From Rubrivivax sp. (GTDB lineage Bacteria > Pseudomonadota > Gammaproteobacteria > Burkholderiales > Burkholderiaceae_C): a DNA stretch of 64,000 nucleotides. The position numbers and the translations under genes are program-made. The first letter of the stretch is position 1, and the number at the start of each line of letters is the position of its first letter. The DNA lies in assembly GCA_020852865.1 (NCBI GenBank), contig JADYZZ010000053.1:22359-86358 (forward strand). The letters are read 5' to 3'. Below, piece after piece: positions 10,343 to 26,970 of the stretch. A model generated the notes under the pieces. It was not told the DNA's origin and ran no database searches. It saw only the letters and a list, made by a program, of their open reading frames with translations.

Positions 10343-11527
10343 ATGACCATGATGTCCAGCATGCGCGGAATTCTTGCCGCATTGATCGGGGCCTCGATAT
10401 TGGCGAGCGGGCACGATGCGTCGGCCCAGGACAAGCGCCCGTACAAGATCGGCAGCGTCTTCTCGGTCACCGGCGCCGGCGGGCTGCTGGGCGAGCGGAT
10501 GAAGATGACCGTGGAGTTGATGGTCGAGCAGATCAACAAGAGCGGCGGCATCAACGGCCGTCCGGTGAAGCTCATCGTCTACGATGCCGCGAGCGACGTG
10601 ACCAAGGCCGTCGCGGCCACCAATCGCCTGATCACTCAGGACGAGGTCGACATCATCTCGGGGGCCGGGAACATGAGCGGCCTTTCGCTGGCGATGAAGC
10701 CGATCGCGATGCGCCACGGGGTACCGATGATCTCGAACGCCGGGGCGCGGTCGATCGTCGAACCCATCGACAAGAGCACCTGGGCGTTCAAGTCCCACCT
10801 GACCGACAAGGAGATCGTCGGGCGTGCGATCGATTGGTGGAAGTCCAAGGGCATCACGCGCGTTGCGCTGCTTTCGGACACGACGGGCTTCGGCACGAGC
10901 GCGCGCGACGAACTGAAGCTGCAGGCGCCCGGCGCAGGCATCAATGTCGTGGCCTGGGAGGAGTTCGACGCGGCCGCGAGCGACCTGGTCCCGCAGCTCA
11001 CGCGGATCCGTGCGGCCAATCCCGAGGTCATCCTGTGCTGGACCGTGGCGCCCTCGGGTGTCGTCTTCATGAAGAACGCGCGCCAGCTCGGCATGAAGCA
11101 GATCCTGATGCACGGCTTCGGCTACGTGGTGCCGAAGTACATGGAAATGGCCGGAGATGCGGCCGAAGGTACCGTGCTCGTGTCGCTGCGCTTCCCGGTC
11201 GGCCGGCAGCTGCCGGACTCGGATCCGGCGAAGAAGGTCATCCTCGAGTACATGAAGGACTTCAAGGCCAAGTACGGGCAGGATTCCGATGTCTACGGGG
11301 CAGAGGCCTACGACGGGATGCTGATGGCGTTCAAGGCGCTGGAGGCGGCGAAGAGCCTGGACAAGGAGAAGATCCGTGAAGCGCTCGAGCGCCTCAACTT
11401 CGTCGGCACGAACGGCGTCTATCGCTTCGGTCCGCAACGGCACTACGGCCTGACGAAGGACGACGCCGTGGTCATGGAGTGGCGCAACGGCGACTGGAAG
11501 CTGCTCATGGGGGCGGATACCAAGTGA
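10343..11527 (+). CDS. Branched-chain amino acid-type ABC transporter substrate-binding protein (LivK-like, copy 2)
   Basis: Paralog of the 8087 CDS: 'KIGSVFSVTGAGGLLGERMKMTVELMVEQINKSGGINGR'; AGGAG before ATG 10343. Confidence 0.9.
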   Translation: MTMMSSMRGILAALIGASILASGHDASAQDKRPYKIGSVFSVTGAGGLLGERMKMTVELMVEQINKSGGINGRPVKLIVYDAASDVTKAVAATNRLITQDEVDIISGAGNMSGLSLAMKPIAMRHGVPMISNAGARSIVEPIDKSTWAFKSHLTDKEIVGRAIDWWKSKGITRVALLSDTTGFGTSARDELKLQAPGAGINVVAWEEFDAAASDLVPQLTRIRAANPEVILCWTVAPSGVVFMKNARQLGMKQILMHGFGYVVPKYMEMAGDAAEGTVLVSLRFPVGRQLPDSDPAKKVILEYMKDFKAKYGQDSDVYGAEAYDGMLMAFKALEAAKSLDKEKIREALERLNFVGTNGVYRFGPQRHYGLTKDDAVVMEWRNGDWKLLMGADTK

Positions 11528-11639: not shown

Positions 11640-12524
11640 ATGACAGAGTTCCTGCAGCTCCTGATCTCCGGCCTGACGATCGGCAGCGTCTACGGCCTGG
11701 TCGCCGTCGGCTTCTGCATCGTCTACAACACGACCGGGGTCATCAACTTCGCGCAGGGCGAGTTCGTCATGCTGGGGGGGATGATCGCCGCCGTCGTGGT
11801 CGCGAGCCTGGGCTGGTCGGTGCCCGTCGCACTGCTCTTTGCCACGGCTGCGGTCACGCTGATCGGCATGTTCGCCGAGAAGGTGACGCTCGGCCGCAGC
11901 CGCAAGCCCGACGTCTTGAACCTGATCATCGTGACCATCGGCCTGGCCATCGTGCTCAAGGGCCTGGTGATGATGATCTGGGGCAAGTTCCCGAAGGGCT
12001 TGCCGGCGTTTTCCGGCGAAACGCCGTTGAGCCTGCTCGGCGCCACGGTCACGCCGCAAGCGCTGTGGGTCGTCGGCGTGGCGCTCCTCGTGATGGCTGG
12101 CGTGGCCCTGTTCCTGCAAAAGTCGGTTACGGGCACGGCGATGCGTGCCGCCGCGTTCGACCGGGAAACGGCGGCACTCATGGGGATTCCGGTCACGCGC
12201 CTGCGCACCGTCTCGTTTGCCGTCGCCGCGGGTGTGGGCGCCCTGGCCGGCGTGATCATCACGCCCCTCACCATGACCTCCTACGAGCAGGGAACCATCC
12301 TCGGCCTCAAGGGATTCTGCGCCGCCATCATTGGCGGGATGGGGAATGTGTACGGGGCCTTCCTCGGTGGCCTCATCCTCGGTGCTGCCGAAGCCTTTAC
12401 CGCCGGCTGGGGCGGAAGCGGCTACCAGGACGCCGTGGCCTTCCTGTTGCTGATCATCCTGTTGCTGTTCAGGCCATCGGGCCTGCTCGGCGGAACCGGG
12501 GGCGAACGTGCCGTCAAGTTCTAG
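11640..12524 (+). CDS. Branched-chain amino acid-type ABC permease (LivH-like)
   Basis: 'LLISGLTIGSVYGLVAVGFCIVYNTTGVINFAQGEFVMLGG'. Confidence 0.92.
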   Translation: MTEFLQLLISGLTIGSVYGLVAVGFCIVYNTTGVINFAQGEFVMLGGMIAAVVVASLGWSVPVALLFATAAVTLIGMFAEKVTLGRSRKPDVLNLIIVTIGLAIVLKGLVMMIWGKFPKGLPAFSGETPLSLLGATVTPQALWVVGVALLVMAGVALFLQKSVTGTAMRAAAFDRETAALMGIPVTRLRTVSFAVAAGVGALAGVIITPLTMTSYEQGTILGLKGFCAAIIGGMGNVYGAFLGGLILGAAEAFTAGWGGSGYQDAVAFLLLIILLLFRPSGLLGGTGGERAVKF

Positions 12525-13491
12525 GCATCTTCAGCGCCCGCGCTGGCTCGCGCTGGGCATCTTCCTCGCGTTCGTCGCGGCGTTCCCCGCGACGTCGCCG
12601 AATGCGTATCTGCTCAATATCGTCGGCTTCGCAGGCATCCACATCCTGTTGAGCATGGGCCTGAACATCCTCATGGGATACGCCGGCCAGATTTCCCTCG
12701 GTCATGCCGCATTCTGGGGCCTGGGCGCCTACATCTCGGGCGTGCTCACCGCCAAGTTCGGGTGGCCTCCGGTGCTGGGGCTCGTCGCATCGGTGCTGGG
12801 AACCTGCGCCGTCGCGCTGGCGATCGGATTGCCGACCTTGCGTCTGAAGGGGCATTACCTGGCGATGGCGACCCTGGGCGTCGGCATCATCGTCCATACC
12901 CTGTTCGTGCAGTGGTCCGGGCTGACCGGGGGGCCCTCCGGACTGGTCGACGTCCCCAGTTTCTCGCTGGGAGGGTTCACGATCGCTTCGGCGGTCGGGA
13001 ACTATTACTTCATCTGGGCCTGGGTGGCCGTCGGTGCATGGGCGGCACTCAACCTCGGGACATCGCGCATCGGGCGTGCGCTGCGCGCCATCAAGGGCGG
13101 CGACGTTGCGGCCGAGTGCATCGGCGTCGATACCTACAGGTACAAGGTCATCGTGTTCGTCCTGTCGGCCGCCTACGCGGCGGTCGCCGGGACGCTGTAC
13201 GTGCACTACATCAACTTCGCGGCTCCCGACACCTTCGGCTTCATGCAGTCGGTTCTCGTATTGACGATGGTGGTCGTGGGCGGCATCGGGACGTTCTGGG
13301 GCCCGATCATCGGCGGCGCCATCCTCACCTTTCTGCCGGAATATCTCCGCGCCTACGAAGGGCTCGACGTCGTCCTGTACGGAGCGATCCTGGTCGGCGT
13401 GATGATGTTCATGCCCAACGGACTGGCGTCGCTGTTTCGCCGGCTGAGCCTCCGGCTCGGGGCGACGGCGGCGGCGAGAAAGGCGCGTTGA
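12508..13491 (+). CDS. Branched-chain amino acid-type ABC permease (LivM-like)
   Basis: 'LSMGLNILMGYAGQISLGHAAFWGLGAYISGVL'; overlaps LivH stop. Confidence 0.92.
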   Translation: MPSSSRHLQRPRWLALGIFLAFVAAFPATSPNAYLLNIVGFAGIHILLSMGLNILMGYAGQISLGHAAFWGLGAYISGVLTAKFGWPPVLGLVASVLGTCAVALAIGLPTLRLKGHYLAMATLGVGIIVHTLFVQWSGLTGGPSGLVDVPSFSLGGFTIASAVGNYYFIWAWVAVGAWAALNLGTSRIGRALRAIKGGDVAAECIGVDTYRYKVIVFVLSAAYAAVAGTLYVHYINFAAPDTFGFMQSVLVLTMVVVGGIGTFWGPIIGGAILTFLPEYLRAYEGLDVVLYGAILVGVMMFMPNGLASLFRRLSLRLGATAAARKAR

Positions 13492-13494
13492 GCC

Positions 13495-14262
13495 GTGGCC
13501 GGTTTCCTGTTGAGCGTCGACGAGGTCAGCAAGCGCTTCGGCGGCTTGTCCGCGATTTCGAAGCTGTCGTTCCGCGTGCGCGAGGGGAGTATCAAGGCGC
13601 TCATCGGGCCGAACGGCGCCGGCAAGAGCACCTTGTTCAACTTGATCACCGGAATCGATTCGCCCAGCGCCGGGCAGATCCGGTTCGACGGCCTGGACGT
13701 GACGGACATGGTGCCGAACCGCCGTGCGGCGCTGGGTATGGGGCGGACCTTTCAGACGCCGCAGATCTTCGGGGAGATGTCGGTGCTGGAGAACGTCCAG
13801 GTCGGATATCACCTGAGGGGGAAGGCGAGCTGGTTCGATGCCCTGCTGTTCACGCGGCGCTCGCGCCGGGAGGAACTGCATACGCGCGACCTGTGCGCAG
13901 CCGTCCTGGAGAAGGTGGGGCTGTCCGCGAAGTCGCACGAGCCCGCGGGCGGACTCGCCTGCGGGGAACTGAAGTTGCTCGAAATGGCGCGCGCCCTGGC
14001 CATGGGCCCGCGACTGCTGCTGCTCGACGAATTCGCGGCAGGCCTGACGCGCGCCGAAACGGAACACATGATGGCTTTGGTGCAGAGCGTGCGGGCGGAG
14101 GGCGTCACGGTGCTGTTGGTCGAGCACGACATGCACCTGGTGATGAACCTCAGCGATGAGATCGTCGTGCTGAATTTCGGCGAAAAGGTCGCCGAGGGGA
14201 CGCCGGAGGAGATCCGGCGCAACGAACGCGTCATCGAGGTCTACCTGGGCGCCGAGGTCTGA
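13495..14262 (+). CDS. ABC transporter ATP-binding protein (LivG-like)
   Basis: GPNGAGKSTLFNLITG; LLLLDEFAAGL; GTG start. Confidence 0.92.
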   Translation: MAGFLLSVDEVSKRFGGLSAISKLSFRVREGSIKALIGPNGAGKSTLFNLITGIDSPSAGQIRFDGLDVTDMVPNRRAALGMGRTFQTPQIFGEMSVLENVQVGYHLRGKASWFDALLFTRRSRREELHTRDLCAAVLEKVGLSAKSHEPAGGLACGELKLLEMARALAMGPRLLLLDEFAAGLTRAETEHMMALVQSVRAEGVTVLLVEHDMHLVMNLSDEIVVLNFGEKVAEGTPEEIRRNERVIEVYLGAEV

Positions 14263-14263
14263 C

Positions 14264-14992
14264 GTGCTTCGTATCGACAGGGTCAACGCCGGGTATGGTC
14301 AGCTGCACGTCCTGCACGACGTCGAGCTGCACGTCGGAAGCGGGGAAGTCGTCTGCGTGATCGGCCCGAACGGCGCCGGAAAGAGCACGCTGTTGCGCAC
14401 CATCTGCGGCATGCTGCCGGTCGGCTCGGGGGCGATCGGCTTCGAGGACAGGAGCCTGAACGGCTTGGCGCCGGCGGCGATCGTGGCCTGCGGCATTGCG
14501 ATGGTTCCCGAGGGGCGACGCGTGTTCGGCCCGCTGACGGTCCGGGAGAACCTGATGATGGGCGCCTACCTCAGGCGGGGTGCGGCCCAGCGGACCGAGG
14601 TGCGGCGCGACCTCGAGCGCCTGTACGACACCTTTCCGGTGCTGGGTCGGCGCGAGAAGCAGATGGCCGGGCTGCTCTCGGGTGGTGAGCAGCAGATGCT
14701 GGCGATCGCGCGGGCGATGATGGCGCGCCCGAAGCTCCTCCTGCTCGACGAACCCTCGATGGGGTTGGCGCCGCTGATCGTGAAGGACATCTTCCGCGTG
14801 CTCGATCAATTGCGGCGCGAGACGACGATATTGCTCGTGGAACAGAACGCCCGCATCGCGCTCCAACTCGCCGACCGGGGCTACGTGCTGGAGATGGGCA
14901 GGGTGGTGCACGGCGGCACCCGGGACGAGTTGCTGAAGGACGACCGCATCTTGCAAAGCTATCTCGGGGCGTCCGCGGTAGCAGCGAAATGA
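14264..14992 (+). CDS. ABC transporter ATP-binding protein (LivF-like)
   Basis: GPNGAGKSTLLRTICG; LSGGEQQMLAIARAMMARPKLLLLDEPSMGLAP. Confidence 0.92.
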   Translation: MLRIDRVNAGYGQLHVLHDVELHVGSGEVVCVIGPNGAGKSTLLRTICGMLPVGSGAIGFEDRSLNGLAPAAIVACGIAMVPEGRRVFGPLTVRENLMMGAYLRRGAAQRTEVRRDLERLYDTFPVLGRREKQMAGLLSGGEQQMLAIARAMMARPKLLLLDEPSMGLAPLIVKDIFRVLDQLRRETTILLVEQNARIALQLADRGYVLEMGRVVHGGTRDELLKDDRILQSYLGASAVAAK

Positions 14993-15112: not shown

Positions 15113-16000
15113 GTGGTTCCTTCCTTCGACTACATGCGGCCGGCATCCGTGGAGGAACTGGTCGGCGGTCTGGCCGCGGCCGCTGCGGAGGCGGCTGTTC
15201 TGGCGGGCGGGACCGACCTGCACGTCAAGATGCGCATCGGCAAGATGCAGCCGCGCGTCCTGTTCGACATCAGCGAGCTCGAGCCGCTGCGCCGGATTCG
15301 CGTGCAGGACGGGCGCCTGCACATCGGCGCGGCCGTGCGGATGACGGAAATCGCCGCGTCGCAGGAAGTCCGGCGTGCCTTGCCTGCCATGGTGAGTGCG
15401 GTGAACGAAATGAGCTCGCGGCAGATCCGCAATCGGGCCACGCTGGGCGGCAACATCGTTACCGCCTCGCCGGCGGCCGACGCCGTTCCGCCGCTGCTCG
15501 CTGCGGATGCGGTTGTCGTCCTCGTCGGGCCCGAGGGCGACCGGGAGGTGGCGCTTGCCGATTTCGTCGTCGGACCAGGAAGGACCGCGAAGCGTCCGTC
15601 CGAGGTGGTTGCCGAGGTGGCCGTCCCCGTCGGCGCGATGAGCCGCCGCAGCCAGTTCGTCAAGATCGGGCGGCGCAAGGCGCAGGCCATCAGTGTCGTC
15701 AATCTCGCCGGATGCGTCGAAATGGAAGTCGATGGGCGCGTGCGCGACCTGCGCATCGCACTCGGCGCGGTGGCGCCGACGGCCATGCGTGCGCATCGGG
15801 CCGAAGCGGTGTTGCGCGGGCGCAGGCCGAGTGCCGGGAATCTGCGCGAGGCGGCGGCAATCGCAGCACAGGAGTGCCGGCCCATCTCCGACATCCGGGC
15901 GACCGCGGACGGCCGAAGGCGTCTGGTCGAGGCCTGGACATTGCGGATGTTGCAGACCCTGACGGGCCCGGCAAGCGTGGGCCGAGGAGCAGACCAATGA
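15113..16000 (+). CDS. Molybdenum hydroxylase FAD-binding subunit (CoxM/XdhB-like)
   Basis: 'AVLAGGTDLHVKMRIGKMQPRVLFDISEL', 'RNRATLGGNIVTASPAADAVPPLLA'. Confidence 0.88.
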   Translation: MVPSFDYMRPASVEELVGGLAAAAAEAAVLAGGTDLHVKMRIGKMQPRVLFDISELEPLRRIRVQDGRLHIGAAVRMTEIAASQEVRRALPAMVSAVNEMSSRQIRNRATLGGNIVTASPAADAVPPLLAADAVVVLVGPEGDREVALADFVVGPGRTAKRPSEVVAEVAVPVGAMSRRSQFVKIGRRKAQAISVVNLAGCVEMEVDGRVRDLRIALGAVAPTAMRAHRAEAVLRGRRPSAGNLREAAAIAAQECRPISDIRATADGRRRLVEAWTLRMLQTLTGPASVGRGADQ

Positions 16001-16467
16001 CGAAACGTCGTGTCGGGTTGACCGTGAATGGCTGCGGCCATTCCATCGAGATCGCCGAGCATCGGAGTCTGCTGGACGTCCTGCGCGAGGAACTCGGCCT
16101 TACCGGTACGAAGAAGGGCTGCAATGCCGGTGACTGCGGCGCATGCACCGTGCTCCTGGACGGCGAGCCCGTCAACGCCTGCCTCGTCCTGGGCGTGCAG
16201 GCCGAGGGCCGCGAGGTCAGGACGATCGAGGGCATCGGCGACGGCGATCGCCTGCATCCCTTGCAGGAAGCCTTCGTCAAGCACGGCGCCGTTCAGTGCG
16301 GTTTCTGCACGCCGGGCGTGGTCATGAGTGCCTATGCACTCCTGCAGGAGACGCCCAGGCCCAGCCGCGAACAGATTGCGGAAGCCCTGTCCGGGAACCT
16401 CTGCCGCTGCACCGGCTACTACCAGATCGTCGATGCGATCAGCGCTGCCGCTTTCGGCGAGCAATGA
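15997..16467 (+). CDS. Molybdenum hydroxylase [2Fe-2S] subunit (CoxS-like)
   Basis: 'GCNAGDCGACTVLLDG', 'CGFCTPGVVMSAYALL', 'CRCTGYYQIVDAI'; ATGA overlap. Confidence 0.93.
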   Translation: MTKRRVGLTVNGCGHSIEIAEHRSLLDVLREELGLTGTKKGCNAGDCGACTVLLDGEPVNACLVLGVQAEGREVRTIEGIGDGDRLHPLQEAFVKHGAVQCGFCTPGVVMSAYALLQETPRPSREQIAEALSGNLCRCTGYYQIVDAISAAAFGEQ

Positions 16468-16493
16468 AGGCAAGCGACGCAACGGAGGTCCGA

Positions 16494-18779
16494 ATGACCA
16501 CAGAGCGAATCGTCGGCAAGGGCGTCGAGAGGGTCGATGCGCGCACGAAGGTGACGGGGCAGACCCTCTACGCGAGCGACATCCGGATGCCCGGCATGCA
16601 TTTCGGGAAGATCCTGTTCTCGCCCCATCCCAGGGCGCGCGTGGCGGCGATCGACACGCGTGCGGCGGCGGCGCTTCCCGGCGTGCGCCGGGTCATCACG
16701 GCGCAGGATCTGCCCGGGACCAACCGCTACGGCTACGAAGTGGCTCATCGTCCCGTGCTGGTCGCGGTCGGCGACGAGATCCGCTACGTCGGTGATGCGG
16801 TCGCGATGGTCGTGGCCGAAAGCGAGGAGATCGCCGCGCAGGCGGCTGCCGCGGTGTCGGTGTCGTACGAGGTGCTGCCGCCGCTCACCTCTGCGGCCCA
16901 GGCCATGGCCCCGGGGGCCTACCTGATTCACGCCGACGCCCCGGGGAACCGGTGCATGCTCAAGCAGTTCGCGAGGGGCGACGTCGACGCGGCTTTCCGC
17001 GCGGCGGAAGTCGTCGTCGAAGGAACCTACTGCACGCCGCGGCAGGAGCAGGCCTTTCTCGAGCCGGAGGCCGGCGTCGCCTACCAGGATCCCCTGGGGG
17101 TGCTGCACGTGATGTCTTGTCTGCAGGATCCCTACGGCGTGGCCGAAGACATCCACATCGCCTTGGGCGTTCCGAGGTCGAAGATCCACATCAAGGGGAC
17201 GCCGGTCGGCGGCGGCTTCGGCGGGAAGCTGAACACGACGATTCAGGTCCATCTGGCGGCCATGGCCCTGCTGGCCGGCGTGCCGGTGATGCTGGTACTC
17301 GAACGCGAGGAGTCCTTCGCCTTCCACCCCAAGCGCCATCCCGCTGAAATCCACCTGCGCATCGGCACCGACCGCAACGGCGTGATCCAGGCGTTCGAAG
17401 GCCGGGTGATCGCGGACGCCGGCCCCTACTCAGGGCGGACGCCCGAGGTCGTGGGCCTGCTGATGTCTGCCCTGGTGGGCCCCTACAGGCTTGCGAACGT
17501 CAGGACACGTGCCGAAGCCATCTACACGAACAACCTCGATTCGGGCGCGTTCCGCGGGTTCGGGGCGCCCCAGGCCGCGATTGCGCGCGAATGCCTGCTC
17601 GACCGCCTGGCGCGCACCCTCGAGATGGATCCGCTCGAGTTGCGGCGCCGGAACTTCCTGACTGCCGACGATTCGCCGGCCAGTGCGATGCTGGGCGACA
17701 GCCCGGTCAGCATCGACAAGCTCGTTCAGCGCATCCTGGAGAAGATCGGACCCAGGCCGAGCCAGCCCGAGGATTCGACGAAGCGGATCGGCCGCAGCAT
17801 CTGCTTCGACATGCCGGTGTTCGACGTGGGCGCGATACCGGTTCTCGGCAAGTCGGGTGTCGGCGCCGCCGTCGAGGTGCAGGCCGACGGCAGCGTCTCC
17901 GTCTACGCCGGCGGAACCGAGTTGGGGCAGGGCATCTCTACGGTCCTGGCGCAGATTGCCGCCGAGGGTTTCGGCCTGTCGATGGCGTCCATCCAGGTCG
18001 AGATGAGCGATACATCGACTTGCCCGCGAGCCGGCAGAACCTCCGCGTCCCGGCTGAGTTTCGGACTGGGCAACGCGGTCTTGCGTGCCGTGGAGCCCGT
18101 GCGGGCGACGATTGCCGCGCGTGCCGCCAGGATGCTCGAGGTGCCGTCGGAGGAACTGATTTTCGAGGGCGGCAGGATTCGCGCCAAAGCCGACGCCGGG
18201 AAGTCGCTGGCTTTCGCCGACGTCGCCAAGGCCTGTTCGGACGTGGGCGACAAGCTGCGCGAGGAAGGCTGGTTCCGCGCCTCGGAGGGCCGCTACATGT
18301 ACGGCCACACGTTCATGGCGGCTGCGGCCGACGTCGAGGTCGACCTCGACACCGGCGAGACGCGGGTGCTCAAGATCGTCAACGTGCTCGATATGGGCCG
18401 GGTGCTCAATCCCGTCATGGCCTACGGCCAGATCTATGGCGGCGCAATCCAGGCGTTGGGGTATGCGCTGATGGAGGACATGACCACCGTGGACGGCTTG
18501 CCGACGAGCCCGTCGTTCGCTCAGTACATGATCCCCACCGCGCTCGACATCCCGGTGGAATTCGTTTCGGATGCCATCGAGACCCCGTACGCGTCCGGGC
18601 CCTTCGGTGCCAAGGGGATCGGCGAAGCGGCGCTCAATTGCACGACTCCGACCTTGCTCAATGCGGTTGCCGACGCCTTGGGTACCGAGGTGGCGGGCAT
18701 CCCGATTACGCAGGAGCAGGTCCTGAGCGCGTTGCGCGAGCACCGGCATTGCCGCGACACCATGGAGGAAGTCGCCTAG
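16494..18779 (+). CDS. Molybdenum hydroxylase molybdopterin-binding subunit (CoxL/XdhA-like)
   Basis: 'DARTKVTGQTLYASDIRMPGM', 'GTPVGGGFGGK', 'SGAFRGFGAPQA', 'GAKGIGEAALN'; GGAGG before ATG 16494. Confidence 0.9.
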   Translation: MTTERIVGKGVERVDARTKVTGQTLYASDIRMPGMHFGKILFSPHPRARVAAIDTRAAAALPGVRRVITAQDLPGTNRYGYEVAHRPVLVAVGDEIRYVGDAVAMVVAESEEIAAQAAAAVSVSYEVLPPLTSAAQAMAPGAYLIHADAPGNRCMLKQFARGDVDAAFRAAEVVVEGTYCTPRQEQAFLEPEAGVAYQDPLGVLHVMSCLQDPYGVAEDIHIALGVPRSKIHIKGTPVGGGFGGKLNTTIQVHLAAMALLAGVPVMLVLEREESFAFHPKRHPAEIHLRIGTDRNGVIQAFEGRVIADAGPYSGRTPEVVGLLMSALVGPYRLANVRTRAEAIYTNNLDSGAFRGFGAPQAAIARECLLDRLARTLEMDPLELRRRNFLTADDSPASAMLGDSPVSIDKLVQRILEKIGPRPSQPEDSTKRIGRSICFDMPVFDVGAIPVLGKSGVGAAVEVQADGSVSVYAGGTELGQGISTVLAQIAAEGFGLSMASIQVEMSDTSTCPRAGRTSASRLSFGLGNAVLRAVEPVRATIAARAARMLEVPSEELIFEGGRIRAKADAGKSLAFADVAKACSDVGDKLREEGWFRASEGRYMYGHTFMAAAADVEVDLDTGETRVLKIVNVLDMGRVLNPVMAYGQIYGGAIQALGYALMEDMTTVDGLPTSPSFAQYMIPTALDIPVEFVSDAIETPYASGPFGAKGIGEAALNCTTPTLLNAVADALGTEVAGIPITQEQVLSALREHRHCRDTMEEVA

Positions 18780-18911: not shown

Positions 18912-19739
18912 ATGAAGGATTACGCGCTTCCCATCCTGATCGCCCCAGACGAGCTGCGCAGCCTCGTTGGCAGCGCGGGCGTGCAGTTGATCGACTGCCG
19001 TCCGACGGAGGCCTACGTCGCCGGCCATCTTCCCGGCGCCCTGCATGCCGATCTCTACGGGCTCAACCTGTGCGACTCCGATCCGGCGCCCCTGCGGGCC
19101 TTCCTGTGGATGATCGCCTACCTGTTCGGCATCAAGGGAATCGACCCGGCGCAGACGGTCGTTCTCTACGACGACACCACCGACTGGCGCGTCGCGCGGA
19201 CCTGGTGGTTGCTCGACTGCTTCGGACATCCTCGCGCGCGCATCCTGAACGGCGGCCTGCGCGCCTGGGCCAGCGCGGGGCTGCCGCTGTCCGCCGAGCC
19301 TGTCGCGCCCGTGCGCACGAACTTCGCGCTGCAACCGCAGGCCGATCGACTGGCGTCGTACCGCGAGGTCCTTGCCGGCCTCGGCCAGCCCGGGACGCGG
19401 ATCCTCGACGTGCGAACGCGACTCGAGCACCTGGGGCAGGATATCCAGGCCGCGCGCGGCGGCTCGATCCCCGGCGCGATCTGGATCGACTATCTCGAGA
19501 ATCTGGACGAACAAGGCGCCTTCAAGCCTGCGCACGTGCTCGCGCCCATCTACGAGGCCGCGGGGATCCGTCCGCAGTCCGAGGTCATCACCTACTGCCA
19601 GGGCGGCTACCGAGGCGCGCATACCTATCTCGCGCTCCGGCTCCTGGGGTATGCGCGGGTCCGCAATTACATTGGTGCTTGGAAGGAATGGGGCGATCGA
19701 CTCGATCTGCCGATTGACGTGTTTCCCGAAGGGGCCTGA
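18912..19739 (+). CDS. Sulfurtransferase with two rhodanese domains
   Basis: 'VQLIDCRPTEAYVAGHLPGALHAD'; active-site loop 'VITYCQGGYRGAHTYLAL'. Confidence 0.85.
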   Translation: MKDYALPILIAPDELRSLVGSAGVQLIDCRPTEAYVAGHLPGALHADLYGLNLCDSDPAPLRAFLWMIAYLFGIKGIDPAQTVVLYDDTTDWRVARTWWLLDCFGHPRARILNGGLRAWASAGLPLSAEPVAPVRTNFALQPQADRLASYREVLAGLGQPGTRILDVRTRLEHLGQDIQAARGGSIPGAIWIDYLENLDEQGAFKPAHVLAPIYEAAGIRPQSEVITYCQGGYRGAHTYLALRLLGYARVRNYIGAWKEWGDRLDLPIDVFPEGA

Positions 19740-19778: not shown

Positions 19779-20558
19779 ATGTTCACGATCACGCCCATGG
19801 TGGTGGCCAAAGGGCCGCAACGCGAGAAGAGCCGCTTCACCTACATGCATGGATGCGGCGAGAAAGTCGACATCCCCTACACGACCTGGCTGATCCAGGG
19901 ACGCGGTCTCAACGCGCTGGTCGATACCGGATGCAGCGCCGAGGACTACCGCACGCATATCTGCCGGAGCGGCCCCTTGATGTACGCCGGCGAGAAGTTC
20001 GCCGACGTGGAGGAGATCAAGCCGCTGGCCGAGCACCTGAAGGAGCGCGGTCTGACCTACGACGACATCGACCTGGTGCTGCAGACGCACGTGGACTGGG
20101 ACCACTGCATGAACACGCGGCACTTCACGAAGTCGAAGATCCTCGTGCAGCGCAACGAGTGGGCCAAGCTGCCGATCCACCCGCTCTTCAAGGGGACCTA
20201 CGCGCCGGACTACATCTACGAGGAGATCTCCAAGCGCGATCTTCAGCTGCTCGACGGCGACTACCACGTCACGACGGGGCTGGACTTGATTTACACGCCG
20301 GGCCACAGCCCCGGCGGCCAGTCGGTGGTCGTCGACACGAAGGATGGCCGCTACGTGATCGCCGGCATGTGCACGATCCGCGAGAACTTCTTCCCGCCCG
20401 AGGAAACGAAGAGGGCTACCGGTTTGCCGGTGATCCCGACCGGCTCGCACATGGACCCGATCCAGGTCTACGAGAGCATGATCCGAATCACGCAGGCGGG
20501 TGATCACGTGTTGCCCTTCCACGACCACGCCAACTTCACCATGGGAACGCTCGGTTGA
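19779..20558 (+). CDS. MBL-fold hydrolase (N-acyl homoserine lactonase-like)
   Basis: 'NALVDTGCS', 'LQTHVDWDHCMNTRHF', 'YTPGHSPGGQSVVVDT'. Confidence 0.75.
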   Translation: MFTITPMVVAKGPQREKSRFTYMHGCGEKVDIPYTTWLIQGRGLNALVDTGCSAEDYRTHICRSGPLMYAGEKFADVEEIKPLAEHLKERGLTYDDIDLVLQTHVDWDHCMNTRHFTKSKILVQRNEWAKLPIHPLFKGTYAPDYIYEEISKRDLQLLDGDYHVTTGLDLIYTPGHSPGGQSVVVDTKDGRYVIAGMCTIRENFFPPEETKRATGLPVIPTGSHMDPIQVYESMIRITQAGDHVLPFHDHANFTMGTLG

Positions 20559-20757: not shown

Positions 20758-21672
20758 ATGAATACGAGTGCCGTTATCAGAAGCCCGGTCGAGGTCCGCT
20801 TCCCCCTGGATCTGGCGCCGCGCCTGGCGCCGATCCAGAGCCTGTATCAGGAGGCCAAGCTCGGCACCTGGTCACCCGACGAGGACATCGCTTGGGGCGC
20901 CTTCGATCCTGCCTCGTCGACAACGGCCCAGCGCGACGCGGCGTGCGCGGTCTGGAGCAGACGGACCTGGCTCGAGTACACGGGGATCGCCGAGACGCCT
21001 GCGTTGCTGCTGCGCTTTTGCCTGGAGCGCGCCCGCGAAGTCGATCCCAAGTACTTCCTCACCGTGCGCAATACCGAGGAAGCGATGCTGGTCGAGTGCT
21101 TCGAGCGTTACGCGGGGCTGCTCGGATCCGGCCCGGCGCGACCGGTCGATCCCGCCTGGGAGGCCGTGATCAACCGCGGCCTCTATCGCGATGCACTGAA
21201 TGCCGACGTGGATCTGGATGCGTACGTCGCGGTTCATTGCGCGATCGAGGACGGATTCGAACTGGAGCTGTTTCGCGCCTACCAGGCCAATGCCGCCGAG
21301 CCGGTGGCGCGCCGGATCCTCGACCGCAGCGTTCGCGTCAAGACGCGCCATGCCGCCTTCGGCTGGCATTATCTCGAGGGCCGCGCGGCCCGCTTCGACC
21401 CGCGTCGGCGCGCCGCGCTCGCCGACGCTGCCGCAGCGTGGCTGCAGGACGTGGCATTCGCCGGCTATCACGTTCCCTCGCTCGCGACCTCGATCGACAG
21501 CGCAGGCCTCCAGGAGGCGCAGGCGCTCGCTGCCGCGGGGGGATTGGGCGCGGCGACGGCCGCCGCCGAGGAGCAGATCCTGCGCGAATACCTGGCTGGC
21601 GTGCGCCCGCGCCTGCGTGCTCTGGGCCTGGATCTGCCGCAGCGGCCGCACGCGCGCCTGGGGCTGGTCTGA
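20758..21672 (+). CDS. Ferritin-like superfamily protein, substituted diiron ligands (paralog 1)
   Basis: Aligns by eye to the next CDS ('WSRRTWLEY', 'RHAAFGWHYL'), but EExxH reads EEAML and ExxH reads KTRH. Confidence 0.7.
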   Translation: MNTSAVIRSPVEVRFPLDLAPRLAPIQSLYQEAKLGTWSPDEDIAWGAFDPASSTTAQRDAACAVWSRRTWLEYTGIAETPALLLRFCLERAREVDPKYFLTVRNTEEAMLVECFERYAGLLGSGPARPVDPAWEAVINRGLYRDALNADVDLDAYVAVHCAIEDGFELELFRAYQANAAEPVARRILDRSVRVKTRHAAFGWHYLEGRAARFDPRRRAALADAAAAWLQDVAFAGYHVPSLATSIDSAGLQEAQALAAAGGLGAATAAAEEQILREYLAGVRPRLRALGLDLPQRPHARLGLV

Positions 21673-21740
21673 GACGCGCGCGGAGCGGCACGAGCCGAAG
21701 CGCGCTGGCACGAAGTGAATCGATCGATCGGAGGTCGCGG

Positions 21741-22670
21741 ATGAGCGCAGTGATGGACTCCTACAGAAGCATTCTGGACCAACCGGAGAGCCGTTTTCCG
21801 CTCGAACTCGGGACGCGCAATCCGAAGATCAGGAAGCTGTTCCACGCCTCGCTGACGAGCCAATGGAATCCGGTGACGGTGATCGACTGGGATGCGATCG
21901 ACCCGGCTGCGTATACCCCCGAGCAGCGCATGGCGCTGCGCACGCGCTGGAGTCGCCGGGCATGGGGAGAGTACGGCGCCATCTCGGAGAGTCCGGCGCT
22001 GCAGGTGCGCTTCTGCCACGATGCCGTCGACCCGGACGCACGGCTGTACTTCAGCATTCGCTCGCAGGAGGAGTCGCGCCATGCCGAGATCAGTTATCTC
22101 CTCGCGGAGAAATTCGGCGGCTACATCGATGCCCCGGCCGCCGACTACGAGAACTCGGTCTCGACCCATGGAGTGCGGCGCCTTGCGCTGGACCTGGACG
22201 TGCCGGTCGAATGCACCGTCGCGGCATTGGTGTGCGCGGCCGAGCAGGTGATCTTCAACCTGTTCAAGCATGTCGCCGAGATCACGACCCAGCCCGCGAT
22301 TCGCAAGACCTACCAGCTGATTCTTCGCGACGAAGCCAGGCACTGTGCCTTCGGCTGGTATTTCGTGGCGAGCCGGCTGCCCGGGCTCGGAGCGCAGGGG
22401 CGCCGGCGCATACGCGATGCGGTGGCCAAGATGGTCCAGGAAGTCGAGCTCAACGGCTATCAGATTGCATGGCTGGCGCCTGAAAGCGAGGCCTCGCGTG
22501 CCCAGATCGAGTCCGATCGGATCCTCTGGGAGGCGGGGCTGGGCGCCAGTGTCGAAGAGCTCGAGAAGCCGGTATTCGTGTCTTCGCTTCGCGACATTCG
22601 CGGGCGCATGAAGCGTGAATGGGACATCGAGCTGCCGGTCTTCCACCACCCGAAGACCGGAGACATCTGA
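21741..22670 (+). CDS. Ferritin-like superfamily diiron protein (paralog 2)
   Basis: 'WSRRAWGEY', 'QEESRHAE', 'CAAEQVIFNLFKH', 'RDEARHCAFGWYF' = two ExxH-type ligand sets. Confidence 0.75.
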   Translation: MSAVMDSYRSILDQPESRFPLELGTRNPKIRKLFHASLTSQWNPVTVIDWDAIDPAAYTPEQRMALRTRWSRRAWGEYGAISESPALQVRFCHDAVDPDARLYFSIRSQEESRHAEISYLLAEKFGGYIDAPAADYENSVSTHGVRRLALDLDVPVECTVAALVCAAEQVIFNLFKHVAEITTQPAIRKTYQLILRDEARHCAFGWYFVASRLPGLGAQGRRRIRDAVAKMVQEVELNGYQIAWLAPESEASRAQIESDRILWEAGLGASVEELEKPVFVSSLRDIRGRMKREWDIELPVFHHPKTGDI

Positions 22671-22791
22671 GCCGGACACGCCGCAGCGGGCATGCCGAAG
22701 CCGGCGTGCCGGACGCCCGGCCCGACATGGGGCGCGCGTCACGCACGCACCGCAGCGCGGCTCGGAGCCGGATCGTTTCAGGAGAAACCGT

Positions 22792-23775
22792 ATGAGGGCA
22801 TTACTGAGATCGCTTGCGGTGCTGGGCCTGCTCGGTCTGACAGCGGGCACGGGCCAGGCGAGCGAGGCAGCGGCGTCGTATCCGACGCGACCGCTCCAGC
22901 TCGTCGTTCCCTATCCTCCGGGCGGCTCGGCCGATGTGCTGGCGCGGACATTGGGCGATTACCTCGGCCGGGCGTTGAAGCAATCGGTCGTTGTTTCCAA
23001 CAAGCCCGGTGCGGGAACCGCAATCGGCGCCAGGGCAGTTGCGCAGAGCCCGGCCGACGGGTACACGCTGATGATCGGGACGGTCAGCTCGCACGCCATG
23101 AATCCGGCGCTGGCGCGCAATATCGGTTACGACCCGGTGAAGGATTTCACCGCCGTCGCGCCGCTGGCGACGATCCCGTTCGTTCTTCTCGCCCATCCCA
23201 AGCTGGAGCTGCGCTCGATGGCGGAATTGATCGACCTGGCGCGCAAGCAGCCCGGCAAGATCAACTTCTCCTCGGCAGGAAACGGCACATCGAATCATCT
23301 GGCCGGCGAGATGCTCAATGCGGCGGCCAAACTGCGGCTCGTCCACATCCCGTACAAGGGCAGTGCGCCGGCCCTGAACGCGCTGCTGGGCGGCGAAGTC
23401 GGGTTGATGTTCGACCTGATCGTGACGGCGGCGCCGCAGGTCAAGGCCGGCCGGGCGAACGCTCTGGTCATCACCACGAAGCGCAGGTCGCCGCTGCTGC
23501 CCGAAGTGCCTACGGTCGACGAGGTCGGGCTGCCTGCGCTCGAACTGAGTGCCTGGTTCGGGCTGTTCGCGCCGAGCGGGCTGCCTGGCGATCTGAAGGA
23601 GATCCTCGCGCGCGAGACCACCCGGATCGTCGCCTCGGCCGAATTCCAGGAGCGCCTGCGCAGCCTCGGTGCGATGAGCATGGATGTCACCGCAGCGCAG
23701 TTCCCGGGATACGTCGCCGCCGAGCGCGACCGCTGGGCCCAGGTGATCAAGGCCTCGGGCATCGAGCCGGAATGA
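22792..23775 (+). CDS. Bug-family (tripartite tricarboxylate transporter) substrate-binding protein
   Basis: 'YPTRPLQLVVPYPPGGSADVLARTL', '[32 protein letters not shown]', 'VHIPYKGSAPAL'. Confidence 0.92.
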   Translation: MRALLRSLAVLGLLGLTAGTGQASEAAASYPTRPLQLVVPYPPGGSADVLARTLGDYLGRALKQSVVVSNKPGAGTAIGARAVAQSPADGYTLMIGTVSSHAMNPALARNIGYDPVKDFTAVAPLATIPFVLLAHPKLELRSMAELIDLARKQPGKINFSSAGNGTSNHLAGEMLNAAAKLRLVHIPYKGSAPALNALLGGEVGLMFDLIVTAAPQVKAGRANALVITTKRRSPLLPEVPTVDEVGLPALELSAWFGLFAPSGLPGDLKEILARETTRIVASAEFQERLRSLGAMSMDVTAAQFPGYVAAERDRWAQVIKASGIEPE

Positions 23776-23793: not shown

Positions 23794-25221
23794 ATGGCAA
23801 AGGACCTGCGCTCTTTCATCGACGGGCTGCGCGCGAGCCGGTCGGCCGACCTGGTGGAGATCGAACGGGAAATCCCGCGCGATCTGTTCATGACCCTGAT
23901 TCAGGAGAAGCTCGCGAAGGAGGGGCGCTATCCGGCTGTCCTCTTCCGCAATGTCGCCGGGCACGGCTGGCCGGTCGTGACCGGCCTGTTCTCGAGCTAC
24001 AGCCTGTTGGCGCGCATGCTGGAAGTTGACCCGACAGACAAGAAGCGCGTGCTTTCGGAGTACATGCGACGTGAGGCCGGTCCGATCGCGCCCATTGCGT
24101 TCACCGGAACGACGGCACCGGTGCATGAAATCGTGATGACCGGCGATGACATCGATCTCGATCGGCTGCCCGTACAGAAGCACTGCGCCGGTGACTCCGG
24201 CCGGTACATCACCATCGGATGCATGATCTGCCGCGATCCGGTGAGCGGAGTCGCCAACGTCGGCACCTATCGGCACGAGCTCAAGGGGCGGACACGCATG
24301 GGGTGCATGATGAATCCGGTGCAGCATGCCGCCACGATCCGCAACCGGCACCACGGTGCCGGCAAGGCGATGGAGGTGGCCGTGTTCATCGGGCATCACC
24401 CCGCCTATCACGTCGGCGCCGCTTCGCGGGGCCCGCTCGAGCACGACGAACTCGCAGTGACGGGCGGGCTGCTGGGCGAGGCCGTCGAACTCGTGGCCTG
24501 CAAGACCGTCGACCTGAAGGTCCCTGCGCATGCGGAAGTGGTGATCGAAGGGCGGATCGCCCCTGATTCGTTCGAGAACGATGGCCCGTTCGCCGAATAT
24601 GCGGGCTATTACGGCGCGCCCATGAAGGTGCCCGTCATCGAGGTCACGGCGATCACGCATCGCAGGCAGCCCATCTGGCACGATCTGTTCCCGTCGTTCC
24701 GCGAACATACGCAGGTGGGCGTGCTGGGGCGCGAGGCGCAGTTGTTCCGGCGCGTTCGCGAGATCGTCCCGACGCTGGACGCCATCCATTTGCCGCCCTC
24801 GGGCGCCAATTTCTGGCACTGCTACGTCTCGCTGCGCAAGCGCGTGCAGGGCGAGGGGAAGCTGGCGGGCCTGGCCGTGCTCGGGTCGAACTACGACGTC
24901 AAGCACGTCATCGTCGTCGACGACGACATCGACATCTACGACGACCAGGAGGTGCTCTGGGCGGTTGCCACGCGTGTGCAGGCAGACGCGGATTGCTCGA
25001 TCGTCACGAACAGCTTCGGCGCGCATCTGGATCCGACCGCCTACGGCGAAACGCGCAGCGAACGCGGCCCCATGACCACCAAGGTGATCGTCGACACGAC
25101 GCGCCCGCTGAACCGGGAGTTCGCGCAGCGTGTGCGGCCCGCGGCGCAGCTGTGGGACGCCGTGAACCTGCGCGACTACCTCGGGCCCGGGGGCGCCGGC
25201 GCAGCAGACGGTAGGCCGTAG
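23794..25221 (+). CDS. UbiD-family (prFMN-dependent) decarboxylase
   Basis: 'RYPAVLFRNVAGHGWPVVTGLFSS', 'ENDGPFAEYAGYYGAPMKVPVIEVTAITHRRQPIWHDLFP'. Confidence 0.88.
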   Translation: MAKDLRSFIDGLRASRSADLVEIEREIPRDLFMTLIQEKLAKEGRYPAVLFRNVAGHGWPVVTGLFSSYSLLARMLEVDPTDKKRVLSEYMRREAGPIAPIAFTGTTAPVHEIVMTGDDIDLDRLPVQKHCAGDSGRYITIGCMICRDPVSGVANVGTYRHELKGRTRMGCMMNPVQHAATIRNRHHGAGKAMEVAVFIGHHPAYHVGAASRGPLEHDELAVTGGLLGEAVELVACKTVDLKVPAHAEVVIEGRIAPDSFENDGPFAEYAGYYGAPMKVPVIEVTAITHRRQPIWHDLFPSFREHTQVGVLGREAQLFRRVREIVPTLDAIHLPPSGANFWHCYVSLRKRVQGEGKLAGLAVLGSNYDVKHVIVVDDDIDIYDDQEVLWAVATRVQADADCSIVTNSFGAHLDPTAYGETRSERGPMTTKVIVDTTRPLNREFAQRVRPAAQLWDAVNLRDYLGPGGAGAADGRP

Positions 25222-25353: not shown

Positions 25354-26970
25354 ATGAACATGGAACCCTACCTGGCCGCACGCGCGGCCAATCACGTGCC
25401 GCTGACGCCGGTCGATTTCCTGCTCCGGGCGGTGGAGGTTCACGGCGACCGCGCCGCCGTCGTCTGGGGCAGCCGGGCATGGACCTACGGCGCGTTCGCG
25501 CGCCTGGTCGGGCGCTTCGTGCGTTTCCTGAAGGCAAGCGGCGTAGGGCGCGGCGACGTCGTCTCCGTCATGGCGTCCAATCGCCCGGAAATGCTGGCCG
25601 CTCACTACGCGGTGCCGATGCTCGGAGCCGTGTTGAATACGATCAACATGCGGCTCGACGCGAGCACGGTCGGGTACATCCTCGGCCATTGCGAAAGCAG
25701 ACTCCTGATTTGCGACGCCGAATGCCTCGCGGTCGCGCTGCAGGCGGCGCCGCATGGCATGCCATGCCATGTGCTGCATGCGCCGTCGGGCGGCACGTCG
25801 GAACGCGGCGCGCTCGATATCCTGGGCGACGACGGCATCGAGATCGATTTCGATCTGTCGGCGATCGGCGATGAATGGCAGGCCCTTTGCGTCAACTACA
25901 CCTCGGGTACCACCGGGCGCCCCAAGGGCGCCGTCTACACCCACCGCGGGGCCTACCTGAATGCGATCGGCAATGTCCTGGCCCTGGGGCTGACATCGCG
26001 CTCGACCTATCTCTGGACCTTGCCGATGTTCCACTGCAACGGCTGGTGTCATACCTGGGCGGTGACTGCCGCCGGCGGCCTGCATGTCTGTCTCGACCGC
26101 CCGGATCCGGCGCTGATCTTCCAGGCATTGGAGGCGCACCGTGTGACGCACCTGGCTTGCGCACCGGTCGTCCTGTACATGATGCTGAACCATCCTGCGC
26201 GGGCGACGCGCGATGCCGGCAACCGCGTCAAGGTGGCTACCGGCGGCGCCTCGCCGTCCGAGACGCTGATCGAGCAATGCACGGCACTCGGCTTCGATCT
26301 GATCCACCTCTACGGACTGACCGAGTCCTATGGGCCGGCCACCTTGCGCGACCTGACGGACGAGGAACGCGCACAGCCTGCGGCCGATGTGGCGCGTGCG
26401 CTGGCCCGCCAGGGCATGCGGCATGCGACGGCGAGCCGGACGCTGGTGGTCGACGAGGACGGGAACGCCGTGCCCATGGACGGGGCGACCATGGGCGAGG
26501 TCGTGCTGGTGGGCAATACCTTGATGGCCGGCTACTACCGCGATGCCCAGGCTACGGCACACGCGTTCCGCGGCAACGCCTTTCACACGGGCGATCTGGC
26601 GGTGCGGCATCCGGACGGCAACATCGAGATCCGTGATCGCTCGAAGGACATCATCATCTCCGGGGGCGAGAACATCTCCAGCCTGGAGGTCGAGAATGTG
26701 CTGCAGCGCCACCCGGCCGTGCTGATCGCGGCGGTGGTGGCGCAGCCGCACGAGAAGTGGGGTGAAACGCCGGTCGCGTTCATCGAGTTGCGCGAGAACG
26801 CGCAGACGAGCGAAAGCGAGTTGCGGTCTTTCTGCGCCGCGCATCTTGCCGGCTACAAGATTCCGTCGCGCTTTTTTTTCAGCGAGCTGCCGAAGACCGC
26901 CACGGGAAAGATCCAGAAATTCGCGCTGCGCGAGCGCGCGCGGTCGCCGCAGCCCGCGGGGCCGGGGTAG
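25354..26970 (+). CDS. Acyl-CoA synthetase (AMP-dependent ligase)
   Basis: 'YTSGTTGRPKGAVYTHRGAYLNAIGN', 'HLYGLTESYGPAT', 'RDRSKDIIISGGENISSLEVENVL', 'PKTATGKIQKFALRE'. Confidence 0.93.
   Translation: MNMEPYLAARAANHVPLTPVDFLLRAVEVHGDRAAVVWGSRAWTYGAFARLVGRFVRFLKASGVGRGDVVSVMASNRPEMLAAHYAVPMLGAVLNTINMRLDASTVGYILGHCESRLLICDAECLAVALQAAPHGMPCHVLHAPSGGTSERGALDILGDDGIEIDFDLSAIGDEWQALCVNYTSGTTGRPKGAVYTHRGAYLNAIGNVLALGLTSRSTYLWTLPMFHCNGWCHTWAVTAAGGLHVCLDRPDPALIFQALEAHRVTHLACAPVVLYMMLNHPARATRDAGNRVKVATGGASPSETLIEQCTALGFDLIHLYGLTESYGPATLRDLTDEERAQPAADVARALARQGMRHATASRTLVVDEDGNAVPMDGATMGEVVLVGNTLMAGYYRDAQATAHAFRGNAFHTGDLAVRHPDGNIEIRDRSKDIIISGGENISSLEVENVLQRHPAVLIAAVVAQPHEKWGETPVAFIELRENAQTSESELRSFCAAHLAGYKIPSRFFFSELPKTATGKIQKFALRERARSPQPAGPG

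Follow-up and report, generated by a model that had tools for sequence, protein, structure and literature searches.

The window, a 64,000-nt stretch of a Rubrivivax sp. contig (JADYZZ010000053.1, forward-strand positions 22,359 to 86,358), contains two adjacent genes for ferritin-like paralogs, which we call B and A. They lie within a run of genes on the + strand, listed below by position in the window. Cluster numbers refer to gene clusters shared among the A/B loci, and the names of the Liv permeases and ATPases and of the small xanthine dehydrogenase (XDH) subunits derive from sequence resemblance and cluster membership rather than from separate profile matches.

10343-11527, + strand: LivK-type periplasmic binding protein (PF13458)
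11640-12524, + strand: LivH-type permease (cluster 2; by resemblance)
12508-13491, + strand: LivM-type permease (cluster 3; by resemblance)
13495-14262, + strand: LivG-type ABC ATPase (cluster 6; by resemblance)
14264-14992, + strand: LivF-type ABC ATPase (cluster 5; by resemblance)
15134-16000, + strand: XDH-type FAD subunit (cluster 20; by resemblance)
15997-16467, + strand: XDH-type 2Fe-2S subunit (cluster 17; by resemblance)
16464-18779, + strand: XDH-type molybdopterin subunit (cluster 19)
18912-19739, + strand: rhodanese/sulfurtransferase (PF00581; cluster 51)
19779-20558, + strand: metallo-beta-lactamase-fold hydrolase, lactonase-like (PF00753; cluster 29)
20758-21672, + strand: B, ligand-degenerate R2/ferritin-like paralog, 304 aa (from the open reading frame, alignment to A and predicted fold)
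21088-21090, + strand: B codon 111, CTG (Leu), aligned with A His114
21250-21252, + strand: B codon 165, GAC (Asp), aligned with A Glu168
21340-21342, + strand: B codon 195, AAG (Lys), aligned with A Glu198, at the presumed bridging-Glu position of the R2 fold
21741-22670, + strand: A, intact diiron-site paralog, 309 aa (from the open reading frame, Pfam, alignment and predicted fold)
22789-23775, + strand: TctC/Bug-type solute-binding protein (PF03401; cluster 10)
23794-25221, + strand: UbiD-family decarboxylase (over the TIGR00148 cut-off; cluster 50)
25354-26970, + strand: AMP-dependent acyl-CoA ligase (PF00501; cluster 13)

Both open reading frames are present where the original prediction had placed a tandem of ferritin-like paralogs, and all the motifs quoted there were found. 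The two proteins align end to end with 31% identity over 304 residues (E = 1e-42), and a GGAGG sequence lies just upstream of the start ATG of A at 21741. A search of the window genome at E ≤ 0.01 returned no further copy of either. A has the complete set of six diiron ligands expected of the second paralog, E83, E111, H114, E168, E198, and H201 (E111xxH114 and E198xxH201). The corresponding residues of B are E79, E108, L111, D165, K195, and H198. The His-to-Leu and Glu-to-Lys changes already reported for the first paralog are residues 111 and 195, and a third substitution that had gone unmentioned replaces E168 of A with Asp165, leaving E79, E108, and H198 of the six. We take position 195 to be the bridging Glu by its correspondence with established R2 numbering.

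AlphaFold2 models built from family alignments (mean pLDDT of 93.0 for A and 94.7 for B) matched R2-type chains in the PDB, with ribonucleotide reductase R2 and R2lox on top, which bears out the ferritin-like fold proposed for each protein. The best full-length fold match by TM-score was R2lox for both models (0.65 to 0.68, rmsd of about 4 Å), and the A-family profile gave a collinear match to R2lox and R2 sequences. By model and alignment, A has the four-helix R2/AurF-like core of the ferritin superfamily with its E, ExxH, E, and ExxH elements, and B has the fold without the diiron site. R2lox is homodimeric and has no degenerate partner. In contrast, A is accompanied by one, and the score against the R2lox NCBIfam model (18.9 bits) was far under the cut-off of 274. 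The class I ribonucleotide reductase R2 family (PF00268) likewise gave 16.2 bits against a cut-off of 33.6, and we rejected membership in either family on these profile scores. The statement that these are not Paa proteins also held, as neither A nor B matched PF05138 (PaaA/PaaC) at E ≤ 1, and Paa membership was ruled out.

Like AurF, CmlI, and DnfA, the window A protein exceeds the cut-off of the Pfam AurF family (PF11583; 34.4 versus 29.6 bits) and has a similar helical core. However, the A protein of an Achromobacter locus (L017) scores 23.8 bits and falls under that cut-off, and window B matched no Pfam family at E ≤ 1, and so not AurF, and no NCBIfam model. AurF has a seventh ligand, an extra His located four positions ahead of the final ligand Glu. 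At the equivalent position 194, all 52 of 52 A proteins have Ile (42) or Val (10), and plain AurF membership was therefore rejected despite the Pfam score of window A. The same evidence bears on whether A/B might N-oxygenate its substrate as AurF does, from amine to hydroxylamine, nitroso, or nitro. AurF (2jcd) is among the structural matches of A, at rank 42, and the azoxy synthase VlmB is among those of B. In Alcaligenes, DnfA, a homolog of AurF, takes part in the oxidation of hydroxylamine and ammonia (PMC11440038). Against this, the extra His is missing and the operons described below hold amide and ester hydrolases rather than nitro-processing genes. AurF, CmlI, and DnfA, moreover, are not known to depend on a degenerate paralog. 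N-oxygenation therefore seems quite unlikely, and the surrounding operons suggest the breakdown of an imported compound without singling out this chemistry.

The ligand pattern was compared across the 78 loci that a single scan of the GTDB species genomes yielded, with six aligned homologs as the query; genes in the related loci were called with a simple codon-score script. The A ligands E, E, H, E, E, and H are invariant (52/52). Among 54 B proteins, position 195 is Lys in 45, Arg in 6, Tyr in 3, and Glu in none, counts that may carry a sampling bias because one of the two scan patterns permitted only E, K, or Y there; the Arg-bearing proteins must stem from the other pattern or from their neighbour. 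Position 165 is Asp in 47 of the 54, and position 111 is His in 37, Gln in 7, Leu in 6, Ala in 3, and Ser in 1. E79 and E108 are each kept in 51 and H198 in 52, and nearly all proteobacterial B proteins retain all three. Degeneration goes furthest in the Acidimicrobiia, where the six positions read E, R, S, A, K, and M in L087 and L103, with only the first Glu left, E, K, A, A, K, and Q in L071, and E, K, A, D, K, and H in L086 and L104. With these residues the Acidimicrobiia B proteins cannot hold the cluster, and A is intact in the same loci. The pattern of an intact A and a degenerate B recurs in dozens of other genomes and is thus not due to chance; the asymmetry is a conserved system and no quirk of the window genome.

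Lys or Arg in place of the bridging Glu should prevent a dinuclear centre in B, and its side chain could occupy the pocket by forming a salt bridge. The frequent retention of E79, E108, and H198, often with H111 and D165, would also suit a B that is itself a metalloprotein with a rearranged mononuclear or mixed site, so that both subunits would be redox active. We regard this as very unlikely, as none of the 54 B proteins retains the bridging Glu and most have a basic residue in its place, window B additionally lacks His111, and the B proteins of L087 and L103 keep a single ligand. Alternative ligands in the first paralog had been named as grounds for refutation. The alignment revealed no compensating ligand, and some Acidimicrobiia B proteins are without five of the six.

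A and B form two clades in the tree, each on one side of a starred branch (SH-aLRT of 96 and 99). Each clade spans Proteobacteria, Rokubacteria, and Actinomycetota with a similar branching order, indicating that the pair is old. The two genes are adjacent on one strand in 59 loci from these three phyla, 47 in the order A-B and 12 in the order B-A, with intergenic gaps mostly below 30 bp. The B-A order occurs in loci of the window type, in Rokubacteria, and in L086. Loci without an adjacent pair are mostly contig ends; in L060 the genes lie 3.7 kb from each other, and in L064 the B gene is broken. The distance matrices of A and B correlate with an r of 0.83 (best of 1,000 permutations, 0.23), and with LivH of the same loci taken into account the partial r is 0.50. 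The partnership suggested in the original prediction looks obligate. The system is rare: matches were found in 4 of 299 genomes of the order, a count that includes single A-like genes, in 3 of 296 genomes of the class of L087, and in 1 of 369 genomes of a class-wide draw, namely the window genome itself. Among annotated plasmids there was one close match, in a stretch without annotation, and no function could be taken from it.

A could instead act as a homodimeric oxygenase or oxidase without forming a complex, with B as a separate apo-protein that binds, for example, substrate or product. R2-type relatives such as R2lox are homomeric, and B evolves faster than A (mean distance of 0.56 versus 0.43). 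Two alphaproteobacterial loci have two tandem A genes and a single B (L029:2725-4673 and L032:3409-5310), and the family includes A-like proteins that stand alone, with their ligands intact and without a B (cluster 11; L074, L076, L078, L080, and L083). The genes for these single proteins, which are possible homomeric relatives, often adjoin genes for TctC/Bug-type binding proteins. However, adjacency and co-inheritance persist in the 59 loci through changes of gene order, and the A and B trees match in shape, so we consider independent action of the two proteins unlikely.

From homology, fold, ligand pattern, co-inheritance, and operon context, as established computationally, we infer that A and B are subunits of a heteromeric diiron oxygenase in the R2/AurF-like branch of the ferritin superfamily that catabolizes an imported small molecule, with a probability of roughly 0.65. 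A would bind two irons on its six carboxylate and His ligands, activate O2, and oxidize the substrate. B would be an ancient duplicate that kept the fold and lost the metal site, its Lys or Arg probably salt-bridged to the leftover carboxylates, and would be an obligate partner of A in a structural or regulatory role, comparable to that of PaaC toward PaaA and of Rnr4 toward Rnr2. In the likely order of steps, a LivK/HMGF-type ABC importer would bring in the small molecule for A/B to oxygenate, and a serine hydrolase would then cleave the product; this hydrolase would be kynurenine-formamidase-like in most genomes and another amide- or ester-cleaving enzyme elsewhere.

The likeness to PaaA/PaaC drawn earlier stands as a working analogy, with A of the catalytic type and B poor in ligands, though not as family membership. 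In phenylacetyl-CoA epoxidase, PaaA carries the ligands E42, E72, H75, D126, E155, and H158, and PaaC is a structural subunit of the same fold (PMC4498308); the ligand pattern of A/B would fit such an arrangement. The six E/E/H/(D or E)/E/H ligands are similarly spaced (42/72/126/155 in PaaA and 83/111/168/198 in A), whereas A and B share 31% identity compared to 17% for PaaA and PaaC (PMC4498308). The operon also differs, with no PaaB- or PaaE-like gene recognized beside A/B, and the related loci share no conserved reductase or ferredoxin gene next to the pair, in contrast to PaaE of the Paa system, which counts against the oxygenase reading. Yeast Rnr2 and Rnr4 are active and ligand-degenerate R2 paralogs in a heterodimer, in which a Glu ligand was lost to a basic residue. 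A/B resembles them in fold, in the asymmetry, and in the Glu-to-basic change, but it lies in a catabolic operon with no NrdA among the nameable neighbour genes. Pairs of a working and a dead diiron subunit are thus already known from the epoxidase and from yeast ribonucleotide reductase. We found none described for the AurF/R2lox branch, and searches of the literature on AurF-type heterodimers, the A/B operon, and thiamine catabolism turned up no matching system. The B proteins range from slightly to almost fully degenerate and so form a natural series in which to ask why an inactive partner of a metal enzyme is retained.

In most proteobacterial copies the layout is GntR/UTRA regulator, LivK, A, B, LivH, LivM, LivG, LivF, alpha/beta hydrolase, and Rid-like protein, some lacking the last gene or two. 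Hosts include Achromobacter, Candidimonas, Variovorax, Comamonas, Ottowia, Azospirillum, Xanthobacter, and Bradyrhizobium. With importer and hydrolase genes in the same operons, growth tests offer a way to look for the substrate of the pair. The hydrolase has the motif HGG(Y/F)W and, in most copies, GHSAGG, which we take to be a kynurenine-formamidase-type pattern. Reduced units in L026, L029, L032, L042, and L069 consist of A, B, and the kynurenine-formamidase-like hydrolase without Liv genes, which suggests that this hydrolase acts on the A/B product. Amidase genes follow the pair in L047 and lie further on in L048. The Rid-like protein has Ser or Ala at the position of the RidA catalytic Arg105 (E. 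coli numbering) in 27 of 27 aligned clustered members, and the copy at L103:14864-15274 does not have Arg there either; the copy of L017 is at 15228-15620. This Arg is the criterion for imine hydrolysis by RidA (PMC4433059), so imine hydrolysis is not to be assumed and the case for an imine product from this neighbour is weakened. N-nitroglycine was also considered as a substrate, as its degrader Variovorax JS1663 carries the operon (L012), and was dropped because nothing ties the pair to it. Downstream of the operon, genes for a short-chain dehydrogenase (SDR), an acyl-CoA dehydrogenase, and an APH-type kinase are present in Achromobacter (L017:15655-18685) and Comamonas (L077:16791-20876), the latter with an additional CoA ligase. 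This set recalls levulinate-type 4-hydroxy-acid catabolism but is too narrowly shared to support that reading.

The window belongs to a type (with L010, L011, L013, and L016) that has the B-A order, an XDH-like enzyme, a metallo-beta-lactamase-fold hydrolase, and mostly a UbiD decarboxylase. This gene set would suit the oxidation and decarboxylation of a heteroaromatic acid. In Rokubacteria, the B-A pair is followed by another XDH-type subunit. Window-type clusters also encode a protein of 136 to 141 aa just after the XDH genes (L010:5018-5428, L013:5034-5444, and L016:6277-6702), which has no significant Pfam match and no member clustered in the window.

The strongest hint to the substrate comes from the Acidimicrobiia. 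A TenA-family protein adjoins the pair in five of six loci (L064, L071, L087, L103, and L104), which represent about two arrangements; the sixth, L086, ends shortly after the pair. The L087 protein exceeds the NCBIfam thiaminase II cut-off (TIGR04306; 157.1 versus 130 bits), that of L071 falls under it (90.3 bits), and those of L103 and L104 match PF03070. Alignments to PDB entries indicate that Cys and Glu, at what we take to be the TenA active site, appear to be kept. L071 and L104 also hold NMT1/THI5-like binding proteins, a Thiamine_BP protein, and TRZ/ATZ-type amidohydrolases, a creatininase-family enzyme directly follows B in L071, L087, and L103, and alcohol and aldehyde dehydrogenase genes are present as well. 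TenA acts in thiamine-pyrimidine salvage (PMC10470507), but the combination of an oxygenase, a deaminase, and dehydrogenases would fit breakdown better than salvage. A TenA gene in L053 was not counted, as it lies about 7.4 kb from A beside a ferredoxin and an MnmA-like gene and looks like housekeeping.

The substrate is probably a nitrogen heterocycle, and in the Acidimicrobiia branch a pyrimidine appears most likely. More specifically, A/B could be the oxygenase that attacks the ring in a so far undescribed route for degrading the pyrimidine half of thiamine, or of a closely related compound, a tentative proposal that we consider doubtful. TenA, the NMT1/THI5-type importer, the deaminase, and the alcohol and aldehyde dehydrogenases would make the pyrimidine ready for oxygenation by A/B, and the opened product would then be cleaved by creatininase-type or kynurenine-formamidase-like hydrolases, while the proteobacterial operons would handle related N-heterocycles. 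If the thiamine link is true, these would be genes for environmental vitamin B1 breakdown. However, the link to TenA is missing from most proteobacterial loci, and the window cluster has XDH, UbiD, and CoA-ligase genes instead, so that substrates may differ between branches.

Two further gene families were observed near the pair. Many loci encode a protein of about 410 to 430 aa divergent to the GntR regulator, as at L017:5475-6764 (-), L012:5352-6581 (-), and L026:1543-2829 (-); the copies in L017 and L012 gave no Pfam match at E ≤ 0.01. MetE-like genes (PF01717) lie near the pair in several unrelated loci, at L012:18664-19785 (-), L036:15598-16632 (-), and L050:6429-7625.
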